Shown here piece after piece: positions 4,430 through 31,783 of a DNA stretch of 32,549 nt (within the stretch, counting starts at the first letter, position 1; every line of letters begins with the position of its first letter). Source of the stretch: a virus; IMG/VR virus record IMGVR_UViG_3300044640_001748, positions 1 to 32,549 of that record; one strand, 5' to 3'. The position numbers were made by a program, and so were the translations under genes. The notes beneath the pieces were generated by a model that worked only from the letters and a program-made list of their open reading frames with translations, made no database searches and was not told the origin of the DNA.

Positions 4430-4437
4430 TATTTAGC
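4430..4437 (-). promoter_or_regulatory. Late-promoter-like GCTAAATA
   Basis: On the minus strand this reads GCTAAATA, close to the T4 late consensus TATAAATA. Its last base lies 22 nt before the GTG start of the tail protein, with an AGAGGAT ribosome-binding site in between. It overlaps the stop codon of the exonuclease gene. The same octamer occurs before the gene starting at 8288. Confidence 0.55.
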
Positions 4438-5143
4438 TGATCATGTAGTACTGTTCCACACGTTTGTTCCACTCGTTGTTCCAGTGTGCAAACTCGTCCT
4501 GTTCAATCACATATTCAGTGTAAACCGGTTTGCCTAGTGCGCCGTCGGGCAAAACTGCAGGTTGTTGGGCCATCATGATCACCCCTGTTTTGATATCTGT
4601 GCCGTGGGTGCTATTATGTGCCGAGGCATAGGCTGCAAGTTGGATAAAATAGTCATCAATCCATTCACGTTTTTTGGGCTTGTTGGTTTGTTTAAAATCA
4701 ATGATTGCAGGCTGTCCTTTCCATAACCCAAGACAGTCTGTGGTTCCTGCATATAACCCACTGTAATAAACTGGAACCTCTACTCCCCAAAATTCATCCA
4801 CATTGCCCAGACCTTGAAGGATAACTTCTGCGGCCATAAACCAACTGGGCTGTGCGAAAGGATTTCCGGGCAAGGGTTTCATGTCTGATTGCAGTGCATA
4901 ATGCTCTAGGTAGGCATGCATTCTGGTGCCTCGATTGGCAGCTTCTGTGGTAATTTGCTGTGCTTGTTGCTCGCCCACACGCTTTTTCCAGTTTGCAAGA
5001 GCCTGGCGCTTTTCTTCAGGCTTGGTACGATCTAGTATGGTGGTGACACTGGGAACTTTGCTGCCGTCGGGCAAACAATAATGTCGTTTGCCGTTGATGG
5101 TTGTTCTATCAAGCGGGGCGTAATTATAGCGTTGAGTTATCAT
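4433..5143 (-). CDS. PD-(D/E)XK exonuclease, phage/MGME1-like
   Basis: A 236-aa nuclease of the RecB-like PD-(D/E)XK superfamily. The N-terminus VPSVTTILDRTKPEEK is typical of phage and mitochondrial MGME1-type exonucleases. The core reads GTTDCLGLWKG, then AIIDFKQTNK (acidic and Lys residues of the D...DxK site), then FIQLAAYA (the helix carrying the conserved Gln). Only two cysteines are present, so this is not a Cas4/AddB-type Fe-S nuclease. The start codon overlaps the iscA stop by one base (TAATG). Likely role: DNA end processing in recombination or host DNA degradation. Confidence 0.85.
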   Translation of the reverse strand: MITQRYNYAPLDRTTINGKRHYCLPDGSKVPSVTTILDRTKPEEKRQALANWKKRVGEQQAQQITTEAANRGTRMHAYLEHYALQSDMKPLPGNPFAQPSWFMAAEVILQGLGNVDEFWGVEVPVYYSGLYAGTTDCLGLWKGQPAIIDFKQTNKPKKREWIDDYFIQLAAYASAHNSTHGTDIKTGVIMMAQQPAVLPDGALGKPVYTEYVIEQDEFAHWNNEWNKRVEQYYMIS

Positions 5144-5463
5144 TAAATTCTAAAACTTTCTCCGCAACCACAGCGGTCACGTTCATTGGGGTTGCGAAAT
5201 TCAAAGCCTTCGTTGAGTCCATTGCGGACCCAATCCATTTCAAGGCCTTGAATATAAGCCAGACTTTTTGGATCAATGTAAACATTAACACCTAGAGATT
5301 CGAATAGTTGATCATGTTCGTCTACAGCATCAACATATTCTAACACATAAGCAAGCCCCGAGCAACCAGTGGTTCGAACACCTATTCGAATACCGTCGCC
5401 TTGGCCGCGCTTTTGAATTTGTAATTTTACTTTTTTGGCTGCTTGTTCAGTTAGCGAGATCAT
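5143..5463 (-). CDS. iscA: Fe-S cluster A-type carrier (IscA/ErpA/HesB family)
   Basis: At 106 aa it has the usual length of this family. All three cluster-ligating cysteines are present: C34 in TTGCSGLAY and C98/C100 in CGCGESF at the C-terminus. A-type carriers accept [Fe-S] clusters from the IscU scaffold and pass them to apo-enzymes in the cytoplasm. The gene overlaps iscU by 17 nt upstream and the exonuclease by 1 nt downstream, so the three are probably co-translated. IscA, ErpA and SufA cannot be separated by eye. Confidence 0.95.
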   Translation of the reverse strand: MISLTEQAAKKVKLQIQKRGQGDGIRIGVRTTGCSGLAYVLEYVDAVDEHDQLFESLGVNVYIDPKSLAYIQGLEMDWVRNGLNEGFEFRNPNERDRCGCGESFRI

Positions 5464-5836
5464 GTTTTGCTTTATAATCTGCTACCGCCGCTTTGATGGC
5501 ATCTTCTGCAAGTATTGAACAGTGAATTTTAACAGGGGGGAGGGCAAGCTCATCAGCAATCTCGCTATTTTTGATCGCTGCCGCCTCGTCAAGTGTGCGT
5601 CCTTTGACCCACTCAGTAATGAGCGAACTACTCGCAATCGCCGAGCCGCAACCATATGTTTTAAATCTGGCATCTGTAATGACTCCTTCAGTATTTACTT
5701 TGATTTGAAGTTTCATAACATCGCCACAAGCTGGGGCACCAACCATGCCAGTACCAATATCAGTATTACTCTTATCAAAAGATCCAACGTTCCGGGGGTT
5801 TTCATAATGATCAACCACTTTTTCTGAGTATGCCAT
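5447..5836 (-). CDS. iscU: Fe-S cluster assembly scaffold IscU
   Basis: A 129-aa protein, essentially the length of bacterial IscU. The three scaffold cysteines are C37 (PACGD, with D39), C63 (YGCGSAIASSS) and C106 (KIHCSIL, with H105). The LPPVK chaperone-recognition motif for HscA is intact at residues 99-103, so it could plug into the host Isc machinery. No phage cysteine desulfurase is seen in the window. There is only a weak AGAAAGAA ribosome-binding site. Confidence 0.96.
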   Translation of the reverse strand: MAYSEKVVDHYENPRNVGSFDKSNTDIGTGMVGAPACGDVMKLQIKVNTEGVITDARFKTYGCGSAIASSSLITEWVKGRTLDEAAAIKNSEIADELALPPVKIHCSILAEDAIKAAVADYKAKHDLAN

Positions 5837-5847
5837 AATAATTCTTT

Positions 5848-6444
5848 CTATTTGTTTAACATTGATTGATACCCGTCAATGTATGGGTTAGGTGTGCGTT
5901 CAGGATCCAGGCCGTCAAACAAAACTTTTAACTGTTTATAATTTAACACCACATTGCGGTAGTTGTAAGGGGCTTTGTTTAAAAAGTTAAGCCTACGAGC
6001 TCGAAAAGTATTTGATACCAATCCCAATCGATCCAAAACATGCTGATGGTCATTTACAAAATCTTCAAAATAAAACTCTTCAATCACTGCATATGGCCTT
6101 GACAAATCAACACTTTTTGAATGCCATGTGTTAAAACCATATTGCCATAAAAAATCTTCTTCACTGACAGTAAACGGAACAATAGTCTGATTACTATAAA
6201 TTGTAGATTGTTGTGTATGCCAAACAATACAATTGGACATTATTGATGCAAATGCATCTCGACGTTTTACAATTATTAATGCGGTATTCGAATAATTGTC
6301 TAACACGTACCGCGGATCATGTGAGTGTACAGTTTTTAAAAAAGTTTTATCACCTGCAGATTTTATTATATCTGCAATTAAATTACCCCCAACTCGCGGA
6401 GGAGCACTAATCAAATAACGCTCTATGGCGTTGGACTGCTTCAC
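5848..6444 (-). CDS. Sulfotransferase-like P-loop protein
   Basis: A 198-aa protein. Residues 12-21 (ISAPPRVGGN) resemble the PAPS-binding loop of sulfotransferases. Residues 40-70 (HSHDP...IIVKRRDAFASIMS) resemble the following His-Asp and R...S segment that binds the 3'-phosphate. These are family similarities I see by eye, and substrate and activity are unknown. The start is GTG, overlapping the TAG stop of the Cys-rich gene by one base, with AGGGAT upstream. It might modify a host or virion surface molecule. Confidence 0.5.
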   Translation of the reverse strand: MKQSNAIERYLISAPPRVGGNLIADIIKSAGDKTFLKTVHSHDPRYVLDNYSNTALIIVKRRDAFASIMSNCIVWHTQQSTIYSNQTIVPFTVSEEDFLWQYGFNTWHSKSVDLSRPYAVIEEFYFEDFVNDHQHVLDRLGLVSNTFRARRLNFLNKAPYNYRNVVLNYKQLKVLFDGLDPERTPNPYIDGYQSMLNK

Positions 6445-6626
6445 TAGTTATATCCCTGTCCTGCTATACATATTTCACATTCGCAGTCAGGGCAATAATC
6501 ACATTTGGAACATCCGTGTCCACAATGCTGGTCGCATCCGCATTTGCATTTGAATACGTAGCGTTTGTAATTTTCAAACTGCAACGTGTTACTGTGTGCA
6601 GGTTCTTGTTCGTGTAACTGTGCCAT
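6444..6626 (-). CDS. Small cysteine-rich protein, probable metal binder
   Basis: A 60-aa protein with ten cysteines and two histidines packed into the C-terminal half (CKCGCDQHCGHGC, then CDYCPDCECEIC). The spacing suggests binding of zinc or another metal, or a disulfide knot; I cannot assign a family. It overlaps the 3' end of the secreted-protein gene by 38 nt in another frame and its stop overlaps the next gene's GTG. No signal peptide is seen and there is no strong Shine-Dalgarno sequence, so coupling is likely. Confidence 0.6.
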   Translation of the reverse strand: MAQLHEQEPAHSNTLQFENYKRYVFKCKCGCDQHCGHGCSKCDYCPDCECEICIAGQGYN

Positions 6627-6927
6627 CAGAATTTTCTGTTTCGGTCCAAGGACTGCAATTTTGTTTTTGTGTTTGTATTACCTGCACTGGAGGTTGTACA
6701 ATAACTGGATCTGGGCGTGTTGCACTATAAATTACTGCGCCACCTATGATAGCCGGAACCATCCAATTCAATCCGCCATTGTGGCGCCAGTGACTATGTC
6801 TATGATGGTATTGGTGGTGTACCTGCCAACGAGGTTCGACTACTAGTCTAGAACCGTGACGTTCAGGGCCAGCAAAGGCTGGTACTGCGGCGATAGCCAG
6901 TAATAAGACTGCAAATAATTTTTTCAT
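6589..6927 (-). CDS. Secreted or membrane-anchored His-rich small protein
   Basis: The start was moved to the ATG at 6927 because GAGGAG lies just upstream and a clean signal peptide then begins (MKKLFAVLLLAIAAVPAFA, cleavage probably before GPERH). The mature part has a His cluster (VHHQYHHRHSHWRHN), a hydrophobic stretch (WMVPAIIGGAVIYSA) and a C-terminal Cys pair in NCSPWTE...TRTCTQ. It is exported to the envelope. The function is unknown; the His cluster could bind metal. Confidence 0.75.
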   Translation of the reverse strand: MKKLFAVLLLAIAAVPAFAGPERHGSRLVVEPRWQVHHQYHHRHSHWRHNGGLNWMVPAIIGGAVIYSATRPDPVIVQPPVQVIQTQKQNCSPWTETENSDGTVTRTRTCTQ

Positions 6928-6988
6928 AATGATCTCCTCGAATGTAAGTGTTATTATTATATAACGCATTACCCATCAGTTTAGTATA

Positions 6989-7105
6989 CTACTTTTTTGA
7001 AAAGAAGTCAACTACTTTCTTCTGAATATTACGAGCAAATTCTGGTTGAGGGAAGTTCCAGCCAATAAAGGCACCAATGGCTATTAAAAAGATAGTTTCT
7101 AACAT
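6989..7105 (-). CDS. 38-aa single-span membrane peptide
   Basis: A short ORF read directly from the sequence. It starts MLETIFLIAIGAFIGWNF (one hydrophobic segment) and ends in a basic tail, KKVVDFFSKK. AAGGAA precedes the ATG and the stop of the preceding gene lies one base before the ATG, so it fits the operon. The function is unknown; similar tiny N-terminal-membrane proteins are common in phage late regions. Confidence 0.65.
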   Translation of the reverse strand: MLETIFLIAIGAFIGWNFPQPEFARNIQKKVVDFFSKK

Positions 7106-23473: not shown

Positions 23474-23502
23474 ATTGTACAGGACTTTTTAAACAAAGTC
23501 AA
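23474..23502 (-). promoter_or_regulatory. Sigma70 promoter, TTGACT-17-TACAAT
   Basis: The minus strand has a -35 TTGACT (23497-23502) overlapping the radical SAM stop codon and a -10 TACAAT (23474-23479) with a 17-nt spacer. Transcription would begin 1-2 nt before the uvsW ATG. Confidence 0.6.
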
Positions 23503-24632
23503 GAAAAATATTTGGCCATTTCTGGAAAGGTGTCAGTAAAGCTTGTATTCCGGTATTGGTCGTGTTGTTGTGTTCGTTGTACAAACTCAGCAAAGTGTTC
23601 ACTGTCGTCAACATTGGCCAACATCCTGGCCCAGGTGCGTGTGTCAAGATACGGGCTCTTGGACAGCTTTGATATTATATACTGTTTGGCTTCGCCGGAC
23701 CATACTGATGCTCTAAAATGCTGGGGCAAGTGCACTCGTCCCAGCCAAGGTTTTGGCAATCCTATATCATTGCACCATTTGAAAAACTCTGGCAAGTAGG
23801 CTATGTTAAATGCACTCACTGTCTTTGACACACTGAGTTTAATATTGTCAATGCGCCGTGCATGTTCCACATACTGTTTGACGTTTTCCACAGTGCTCTG
23901 CCACACTGCCGGAAATCTTATGTACTCGTATTGATCACCAACGCCATCAATGCTTAGTTGTAAATCAATTTCTCGAAAATGTGACCAAAGACGCCACCAG
24001 TCTGGGCCTGGGAACATAGTAGCGTTAGTGGTGTAGTGCAGACTTACAGTACGTGATTGGCCGCTGTCGATGTATTTCTGTAGAATTTCATGCTGTAAAG
24101 GCACTCCACTCAAAAATGGCTCCCCGCCTGGTATGTCAATGTGCACCAGTCCCGGAGCATTTGTAAGAAAGTCGTTGACAAAGCCTTGCTTGTAAAAATG
24201 GTTTGGGGGCACATCAATGTTGTAGATTTTTTTGTATTCAGCCTGCCAGCGACTTGATGCCATGGGCCCGCAAGTAATACAAGTTAGATTGCAAGTATTT
24301 CCAAATGCTATACTGGCAGTTAAAATTTTTGCCTGCTCTAGATCATAGTCATTGTAGTGCTGTTGCCAGCGTTCATGATCTAGCTGACGTTTGCTTTTTA
24401 TGTTGTTTTCTTCTTCGATACGGCAACGATCACAACCCTGGGGCCATTTACCTTCAAGGAAATCCTTTTTCACCTGTGCCAATGTGTTGCTGTGTCGATA
24501 ATCTACTAGAGCATGCGTTTTAATATTATTGGCGTGGTCAGGATACGCTGAATTATTGAACTTGCAACAGGGTGTTATTTCACCCTGGCTGTCAATGTCA
24601 ATGTTACTCCATGGGGCATAGCAAAAAGTCAT
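23499..24632 (-). CDS. Radical SAM protein with N-terminal twitch/SPASM-like cysteines
   Basis: A 377-aa protein. The radical SAM [4Fe-4S] motif is CNLTCITC (C114, C118, C121) and the GGEP motif is at 169-172. Before it, CYAPW...GEITPCC and CDRC (C4, C22, C23, C67, C70) look like an auxiliary-cluster domain of the twitch/SPASM kind, here N-terminal rather than the usual C-terminal place. The substrate is unknown; relatives modify peptides or sugars. There is no Shine-Dalgarno sequence. It heads a run of methyltransferase and SGNH genes. It needs Fe-S clusters, which the phage IscU/IscA could help supply. Confidence 0.85.
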   Translation of the reverse strand: MTFCYAPWSNIDIDSQGEITPCCKFNNSAYPDHANNIKTHALVDYRHSNTLAQVKKDFLEGKWPQGCDRCRIEEENNIKSKRQLDHERWQQHYNDYDLEQAKILTASIAFGNTCNLTCITCGPMASSRWQAEYKKIYNIDVPPNHFYKQGFVNDFLTNAPGLVHIDIPGGEPFLSGVPLQHEILQKYIDSGQSRTVSLHYTTNATMFPGPDWWRLWSHFREIDLQLSIDGVGDQYEYIRFPAVWQSTVENVKQYVEHARRIDNIKLSVSKTVSAFNIAYLPEFFKWCNDIGLPKPWLGRVHLPQHFRASVWSGEAKQYIISKLSKSPYLDTRTWARMLANVDDSEHFAEFVQRTQQHDQYRNTSFTDTFPEMAKYFS

Positions 24633-31014: not shown

Positions 31015-31022
31015 TATAAATA
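31015..31022 (+). promoter_or_regulatory. Late promoter TATAAATA (leaderless position)
   Basis: A perfect T4 late consensus on the plus strand. It overlaps the first ATG (31022); by T4 geometry transcription would start at the second ATG (31028), giving a leaderless mRNA. Confidence 0.45.
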
Positions 31023-31783
31023 TGATTATGAAAATCGTTATAGTAACCGGTGGCTTTGACCCCATACATTCTGGTCATATTTCTTATCTCAATCACGCTG
31101 ATCATTTGGGTGATTTGTTAGTTGTTGGTTTAAATTCTGATGCGTGGCTTGCTCGTAAAAAAGGTCGTCCGTTTATGACCTGGCGTGAGCGCATGGCAAT
31201 TTTAGACAATTTACACATGACAGATCATGTCATTGAGTTTGATGACAGCGACGGCACAGCCTGTGATGCTATTCGTCGAGTCAAAGAAATGTTCCCCACA
31301 GACGAAATTGTGTTTGCCAACGGCGGAGATAGAACATCTGACAATATTCCTGAAATGGTGTTTGATGATGTGGAGTTTGTATTTGGAGTTGGGGGAGACG
31401 ACAAAGCCAACTCCAGTTCATGGATACTAGAAGACTGGAAGAAACCCCGAACAACTCGCGCCTGGGGCTACTATCGTGTGTTGCACGAAGTAGGCGCAAA
31501 TACCAAACTAAAAGAACTCACTGTGTCTCCAAAAACATGCCTGAGTATGCAACGACATGATCAACGTGCCGAGTTTTGGTTTGTGGCCGAAGGCGAGGCT
31601 GCTGTCTACACCCTGGACTCGTCAAGTGATCATGATCTAGTAGGACACTACCAGGCCCATGAGCATATTTTTATTGCCCAGGGTGAATGGCACATGTTGT
31701 GCAATGAAACTGACCAGCCACTCCGGTTAATAGAAATACAGTACGGCACTAACTGTGTGGAAGAGGACATTGAACGCCGATGA
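31022..31783 (+). CDS. Cytidylyltransferase-like / phosphomannose-isomerase-like cupin fusion
   Basis: A 253-aa protein. Residues 1-137 are a nucleotidyltransferase of the TagD/RfaE-C kind: TGGFDPIHSGHISYL (HxGH motif), later ANGGDRTSDNIPE. Residues 145-245 are a cupin like the type II phosphomannose-isomerase domain: TTRAWGYYRVL, MQRHDQRAEFWFVAEGEA, and AQGEWHMLCN. It is likely to make an activated sugar or polyol. Start either of two ATGs (31022 or 31028); there is no Shine-Dalgarno sequence. It overlaps the next glycosyltransferase gene as ATGA. Confidence 0.8.
   Translation: MIMKIVIVTGGFDPIHSGHISYLNHADHLGDLLVVGLNSDAWLARKKGRPFMTWRERMAILDNLHMTDHVIEFDDSDGTACDAIRRVKEMFPTDEIVFANGGDRTSDNIPEMVFDDVEFVFGVGGDDKANSSSWILEDWKKPRTTRAWGYYRVLHEVGANTKLKELTVSPKTCLSMQRHDQRAEFWFVAEGEAAVYTLDSSSDHDLVGHYQAHEHIFIAQGEWHMLCNETDQPLRLIEIQYGTNCVEEDIERR

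Follow-up and report, generated by a model that had tools for sequence, protein, structure and literature searches.

Here we show that two small overlapping genes in the window, i.e. the whole stretch of 32,549 bases of an IMG/VR virus record that we analyzed, belong to real and conserved protein families, CysR and HisR, and that both families recur next to iscU and iscA in several phage lineages. CysR, a ten-cysteine miniprotein, is under strong purifying selection, and its ten cysteines and one histidine are invariant. Judging from the sequences, we tentatively propose that CysR and HisR form a metal-handling accessory module of phages, which would be co-expressed with the phage IscU and IscA in an operon-like series.

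The features of the locus are collected in Table 1. The genes of the series follow each other closely. The TAG of CysR shares 1 nt with the GTG start of the sulfotransferase-like gene, which separates CysR from iscU in the window population; iscU begins 11 nt after the latter gene, iscU shares 17 nt with iscA, which in turn overlaps the nuclease-like gene by 1 base. The IscU of the window scores 225 bits against TIGR01999 (cut-off 192.4), and its IscA scores 148.4, which is just under the cut-off of the IscA equivalog (150.6) and above those of TIGR00049 and Pfam. Promoter-like and terminator-like sites showed no clear excess over shuffles. The sulfotransferase-like gene is mobile: in L028/L029 it is found between iscU and iscA instead. 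Elsewhere in the window (31022-31783, plus strand), a cytidylyltransferase-like domain is fused to the C-terminal cupin of a mannose-6-phosphate isomerase.

Table 1. Positions of the features of the CysR-HisR locus in the window.
Feature	Position	Strand	Basis
HisR, 112 aa, probably exported His-rich protein	6589-6927	minus	ORF and sequence reading
His-rich segment of HisR, HHQYHHRHSHWRH, residues 37-49	6781-6819	minus	sequence
CysR, 60-aa ten-cysteine miniprotein; ATG start inside HisR, TAG stop	6444-6626	minus	ORF
Cys core of CysR, CKCGCDQHCGHGCSKCDYCPDCECEIC, residues 27-53	6468-6548	minus	alignment
38 nt shared by the 3' part of HisR and the 5' part of CysR, different frames	6589-6626	minus	ORF coordinates
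GAGGAG, Shine-Dalgarno-like, 6 nt upstream of HisR ATG	6934-6939	minus	read directly
Sulfotransferase-like gene	5848-6444	minus	Pfam Sulfotransfer_3, 15.1 bits, below cut-off 27
IscU (Fe-S scaffold)	5447-5836	minus	Pfam NifU_N 1.8e-53; TIGR01999 above cut-off
IscA (A-type carrier)	5143-5463	minus	Pfam Fe-S_biosyn 1.3e-19
PD-(D/E)XK nuclease-like gene, last in overlapping series	4433-5143	minus	PF12705, 22.1 bits vs cut-off 22

Several lines of evidence establish CysR as a family. First, an earlier sequence-only reading of this DNA had described an exported protein with a His-rich segment whose gene overlaps, in a different frame, that of a protein with ten cysteines in about 30 residues. Both open reading frames, their strand and their overlap were confirmed, and the exact count is ten cysteines in 27 residues (positions 27, 29, 31, 35, 39, 42, 45, 48, 50 and 53). 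None of the six frames attained this density in 200 dinucleotide-preserving shuffles of the window, the maxima being 6-9 cysteines per 27 aa. Second, the Cys-rich frame is conserved in relatives, with invariant cysteines and an excess of synonymous changes; a lack of such conservation, which would have counted against the earlier reading, is thereby excluded. A first profile scan of IMG/VR led to 128 confirmed relatives in 291 stretches, and a second to 103 in 236, 80 being kept each time; a DNA pattern for the cysteine spacing, also run on IMG/VR, gave at least 119 stretches, of which 15 carry CysR relatives by profile among the matches listed. Four contigs of the window's own population, recovered by a plain protein search, carry CysR (99.9-100% DNA identity). 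The nearest diverged relative, L154, was used for the comparison of substitutions given below; in L154/L155, CysR has 85% protein identity over all 60 residues and the same overlap with HisR, and the order HisR, CysR, iscU is the architecture of the window minus the sulfotransferase-like gene.

Third, all ten cysteines and His34 are invariant in 32 of 32 aligned members. The core C-x-C-G-C-x2-H-C-x3-C-x2-C-x2-C-x2-C-x-C-x2-C is present in the window copy; its glycine is found in at least 90% of the 32 members, and its spacing deviates in a few. Outside the core, the family has a conserved N-terminal motif, YMDDF-NYKRFT. The window copy has FENYKRY, with a 14-residue leader replacing YMDD, and the motif is missing in some other members too. 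Fourth, between the window and L154, codons 13-60 of CysR show 22.5 synonymous differences at 25.0 sites and 8.5 nonsynonymous differences at 119.0 sites (NG86), and the cysteine codons differ by synonymous changes only. AF2 gave CysR no fold (pLDDT 52). Ten invariant thiols and a histidine in a chain with no predicted fold of its own would be consistent with a structure organised by bound metal, as in metallothioneins. One locus, L087, contains a doubled CysR unit, a single ORF with two ten-Cys-like repeats (6581-6850, minus strand), and a second CysR-like match is present in the two-locus cluster headed by L221 (L221 and L223).

The HisR family was collected by an alignment scan, which gave 69 loci from 87 stretches. 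The window copy begins MKKLFAVLLLAIAAVPAFAG and consists of a signal peptide, the His-rich segment, a glycine-zipper-like hydrophobic helix (~56-70) and a C-terminal two-Cys hairpin (91-110); this agrees with the exported-type protein of the earlier reading, and the protein is probably exported, as its sequence suggests. The usual motifs of the family are a W-x-W-V-x-P-x-IIGG helix, a V-I-V-Q-Q-P stretch and C-SPWTE-DGT-TRTRTC, and in an alignment of 36 sequences W55, P58, G62, G63, C91, W94, E96, G102, R108, T109 and C110 are invariant. The window copy shows the whole family pattern (signal peptide, W-x-x-P-x3-G-G helix, C-x2-W-x-E...G...R-T-C hairpin); weaker relatives drop the hairpin or the His segment. 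The AF2 model contains an N-terminal helix, helix 56-70 and hairpin 91-110 at a pLDDT of ~90, with a pTM of 0.24, and a Foldseek search with it returned nothing under E 5. The 36 members gave only scattered weak matches to Pfam, the best being DUF6732 (3/36, E 0.001) and Fungus-induced (6/36, E 0.0061). No relative was found by tblastn in INPHARED phages with the window copy (P0002) and L426 as queries, or in plasmids with L426. Bacterial glycine-zipper envelope proteins combine a signal peptide with a glycine-zipper helix. HisR resembles them in its signal peptide, glycine-zipper-like helix, proline-rich stretch and two-Cys C-terminal module; it differs from them in matching Pfam only weakly and in having a His-rich segment and a linkage to iscU.

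The overlap between the two genes is probably incidental, a compact junction rather than a key feature, and at most it couples translation. Among the loci examined, HisR and CysR lie side by side only in the window population and in L154/L155 (6 of 69 HisR loci). Codons 1-12 of CysR, in the overlap, differ between the window and L154 by two synonymous and two nonsynonymous changes, which are too few to judge. Outside the window population, the first 14 residues, which bear the overlap, were found only in L154/L155 and in L011, where they lead into another gene. Since most members in other phages start near NYKR, a few residues ahead of it, these 14 residues are a local addition. The ATG of CysR arises from the GAT-GGC (Asp-Gly) codons of the conserved HisR hairpin; GAT is used at this site in 29 of 56 distinct HisR sequences, and an ATG at this spot is therefore a common by-product. 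In L011 the sulfotransferase-like gene seems to begin at the same ATG. A TTG start at codon 15 (6584), which would abolish the overlap, was considered and rejected: L154/L155 have TTA at this codon, which leaves the ATG at 6626 as the start common to these copies.

How often CysR lies near genes for Fe-S assembly was assessed with 97 CysR matches in the examined loci, corresponding to 52 distinct sequences and 34 clusters at 85%. An iscU or iscA open frame lies within 400 nt of CysR in 12 of 34 clusters. One of these, L348, had been retrieved with an IscU query, and leaving it out gives 11 of 33; the iscA neighbours include several divergent ones. A gp14/gp15-like gene is found within the same distance in 10 clusters (one of them also with iscU/iscA), NrdA is near in two, and 11 have none of these genes. 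CysR and iscU share a one-base stop-start junction in L154/L155, L163/L189, L187, L192 and L211/L212. On a poorly resolved tree of 51 CysR rows and 47 columns, Fe-S adjacency (700-nt label) requires 10 changes, at least three of them forced by well supported branches; for this count L277, whose contig ends before iscU, was labelled 'other', and the window row was assigned 'FeS' by hand. Other copies are linked to ribonucleotide reductase genes. L303 (50-3284) contains an operon with the order NrdA, CysR, thioredoxin, NrdB; L294 (13-1406), which begins at CysR, continues with thioredoxin-like and NrdB-like genes by likeness to L303; and NrdA and CysR are neighbours in L232. In L296, a ferritin-like gene lies two ORFs upstream of CysR and an isocitrate lyase-like ORF downstream.

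The profile scans favour the Fe-S link, because they rank by likeness to the window copy (P0001) or to L163, both IscU-linked; the pattern scan is less biased in this respect. Among the matches listed, its 15 CysR loci have iscA once (L125), iscU never, gp14/gp15-like genes nine times and NrdA once, and one of them, L103, is of the window population and ends before iscU. None of 104 non-CysR loci of the same scan (978 kb, among the matches listed) contains iscU, iscA, HisR relatives or other query genes. An A-type carrier is encoded on 9 of 14 large CysR contigs, picked by length, and IscU on 4, compared with 2 and 0 of 18 large control contigs (Fisher p 0.0025 for the carrier and 0.028 for IscU); control loci and contigs were unmatched for phage group or habitat. 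These p values are too favourable, because six of the 14 contigs form one group with a divergent iscA beside CysR, without which the carrier count is 3/8. Large contigs of the gp14/gp15 type have IscU in 0/5 and an A-type carrier in 1/5, and no CysR was found in nine records of HisR or sulfotransferase-like relatives. We conclude that some of the CysR family is genuinely linked to Fe-S genes, although this is no rule. The suggestion of the sequence-only reading that the two genes form a metal-handling patch with their Fe-S neighbours therefore stands in part: both conserved phage families recur beside iscU/iscA in several contexts, but many CysR copies have no nearby Fe-S gene.

For HisR, 48 distinct sequences (C-terminal halves) were compared, and 21 of them have iscU downstream at no more than 800 nt. 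At least two of the negatives (L396 and L404) end less than 350 nt after HisR, and the link may be favoured because the seed alignment came from relatives of the window. Starting from IscU, HisR relatives are present in 20 and CysR in one of 80 loci kept from at least 600 matching stretches. HisR is located downstream of iscA in L361 and L382, and weak matches to HisR without the His segment occur in L363, L364, L373 and L388. The slot before iscU alternates between HisR (L422, L451) and CysR (L348), and also holds a glutaredoxin-family gene (L311 3703-3996), a class-V aminotransferase gene (L332 2849-3994), possibly encoding a cysteine desulfurase, and IscA, CspA-like and small membrane ORFs. 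By comparative evidence, much of the HisR family and part of the CysR family are tied to phage Fe-S assembly. A 38-aa single-helix ORF in the window (6989-7105, minus strand; MLETIFLIAIGAFIGWNFPQPEF...) resembles ORFs that directly precede iscU in several IscU loci (e.g. L315, L321, L349 and L361), and it may therefore be another member of this accessory slot. An iscR-iscS-iscU-iscA-hscB-hscA series was seen in L457 (CAKLQF020000009.1 35882-41253), a record named Acinetobacter phage that resembles a bacterial chromosome deposited as a phage.

Genes for IscU and A-type carriers are themselves known in phages. According to the text of PMC5332604, they occur as auxiliary metabolic genes in marine environmental phages, some of them T4-like, and have been proposed to support Fe-S proteins of both phage and host. 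The companions named there are glutaredoxin, PaaD, ClpP, Cas4 and radical-SAM genes. Its main text uses neither 'cysteine-rich' nor 'metallothionein'. We recognised no description of the CysR or HisR family in searches of the open-access journal literature. CysR had no fitting model in Pfam, PHROGs, NCBIfam or PADLOC, and the PDB gave no sequence match; at E 0.5, none of the 32 members hit a Pfam metallothionein model or anything in NCBIfam. Searches with tblastn of INPHARED phages gave nothing with members L113, L163 and L223, and with the window copy they gave two places in Aeromonas phages (E 0.3-0.4); the one inspected sits in a 254-aa ORF and was judged to be chance. A search of plasmids with L163 was also negative. 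In bacterial genomes, scanned with narrow patterns, relatives were found in 0 of 39 stretches in a first scan and in 1 of 83 in a second, and the latter (L230) was rejected because it belongs to an ORF of 1004 aa, in a Firmicute MAG; given how narrow the patterns are, a bacterial source may have escaped them.

How might such a module act? CysR would be a small metallothionein-like protein of the cytoplasm, folded around perhaps 3-4 metal ions (Zn2+, Fe2+ or Cu+), with its ten thiolates and the histidine as ligands. During infection it could buffer or pass on metal, or guard against mismetallation and oxidation, for the phage Fe-S assembly, and in other phages it could serve ribonucleotide reductase likewise. 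HisR would be exported, held by its glycine-zipper-like helix, and bind metal via its His segment at the envelope. The bacterial metallothioneins of the SmtA/BmtA type are very small, Cys-dense proteins with CxC and CxxC motifs and a polymetal-thiolate cluster. CysR is like them in its very small size, in its cysteine content of about one fifth with CxC/CxxC spacing, in its invariant histidine and in the expected polymetal-thiolate cluster. It differs from them in having no Pfam match, in its N-terminal YMDDF-NYKRFT motif, in lying often near iscU/iscA or nrd genes, and in being found here only in viral contigs. The window also carries NrdA and a SPASM-domain (Fe-S binding) gene (23499-24632, minus strand). 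The products of both would use metal or Fe-S, and that of the SPASM-domain gene might draw on the Fe-S assembly genes of the phage. Both are enzymes, whereas CysR and HisR resemble small binding proteins.

The strongest rival to CysR as a metal donor for IscU and IscA is a general metallothionein role. CysR would then be a phage metallothionein or thiol buffer (for zinc, copper or oxidant protection) that is not specifically linked to the assembly of Fe-S clusters, and shared accessory slots would explain its neighbours. We give this appreciable, if limited, weight. It accords with the diverse contexts of the 34 clusters, with the single Fe-S assembly gene at the 15 pattern-scan loci listed, with the CspA-like, small membrane and other ORFs that also take the slot before iscU, and with the resemblance of the Cys density and CxC/CxxC spacing to those of metallothioneins. 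However, iscU/iscA adjacency recurs on the tree, and the conserved motif outside the Cys core suggests a partner. As for the proposed metal-handling module, a bolder form of it, which we consider unlikely, is that CysR is a phage-specific metallochaperone family (Cys10His) that loads metal for IscU/IscA and ribonucleotide reductase, its partner in some phages being a His-rich envelope protein that collects metal at the cell surface.

A zinc-finger-like role in the structure or assembly of the neck or tail, with later copying to other places, is improbable for CysR. In many phages CysR does lie between gp14-like and gp15-like genes, including the nine pattern-scan loci mentioned above; the gp15-like gene was assigned by Pfam PF16724, and its counterpart, called a virion structural protein by PHROGs, is presumably gp14 in the T4-like neck/tail contexts. 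Nevertheless, 24 of 34 clusters have no gp14/gp15-like gene within 400 nt of CysR, and there is none in the window-population loci L277-L280. Similarly improbable is an Fe-S or electron-transfer protein of ferredoxin type, which would take clusters from the phage IscU or give electrons to NrdA. The neighbours (IscU/IscA and NrdA/thioredoxin) and the CxxC runs would suit such a role, but no ferredoxin family in Pfam or NCBIfam and no sequence relative in the PDB was found for CysR, and its CxCGC spacing differs from the CxxCxxCxxxCP of ferredoxins. Finally, an accidental open frame in the gap after HisR, to which one might ascribe the neutral codon usage of CysR and the lack of a Cys-rich frame in L011 (flanks 89-93% identical to the window; ~160 bp absent at this place, as in L006, so that the leader continues into the sulfotransferase-like gene), is refuted by the family scan, the invariant cysteines of the alignment, the purifying selection and the shuffles, and its probability is negligible.

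CysR and HisR are direct, testable candidates for how a phage would obtain and steer metal for its IscU and A-type carriers, and CysR is short enough for synthesis. The CysR family also illustrates how small Cys-rich phage ORFs, even conserved ones, can slip past current libraries. If the metallochaperone reading is true, these phages would carry with them the means to supply their own metalloenzymes with metal.
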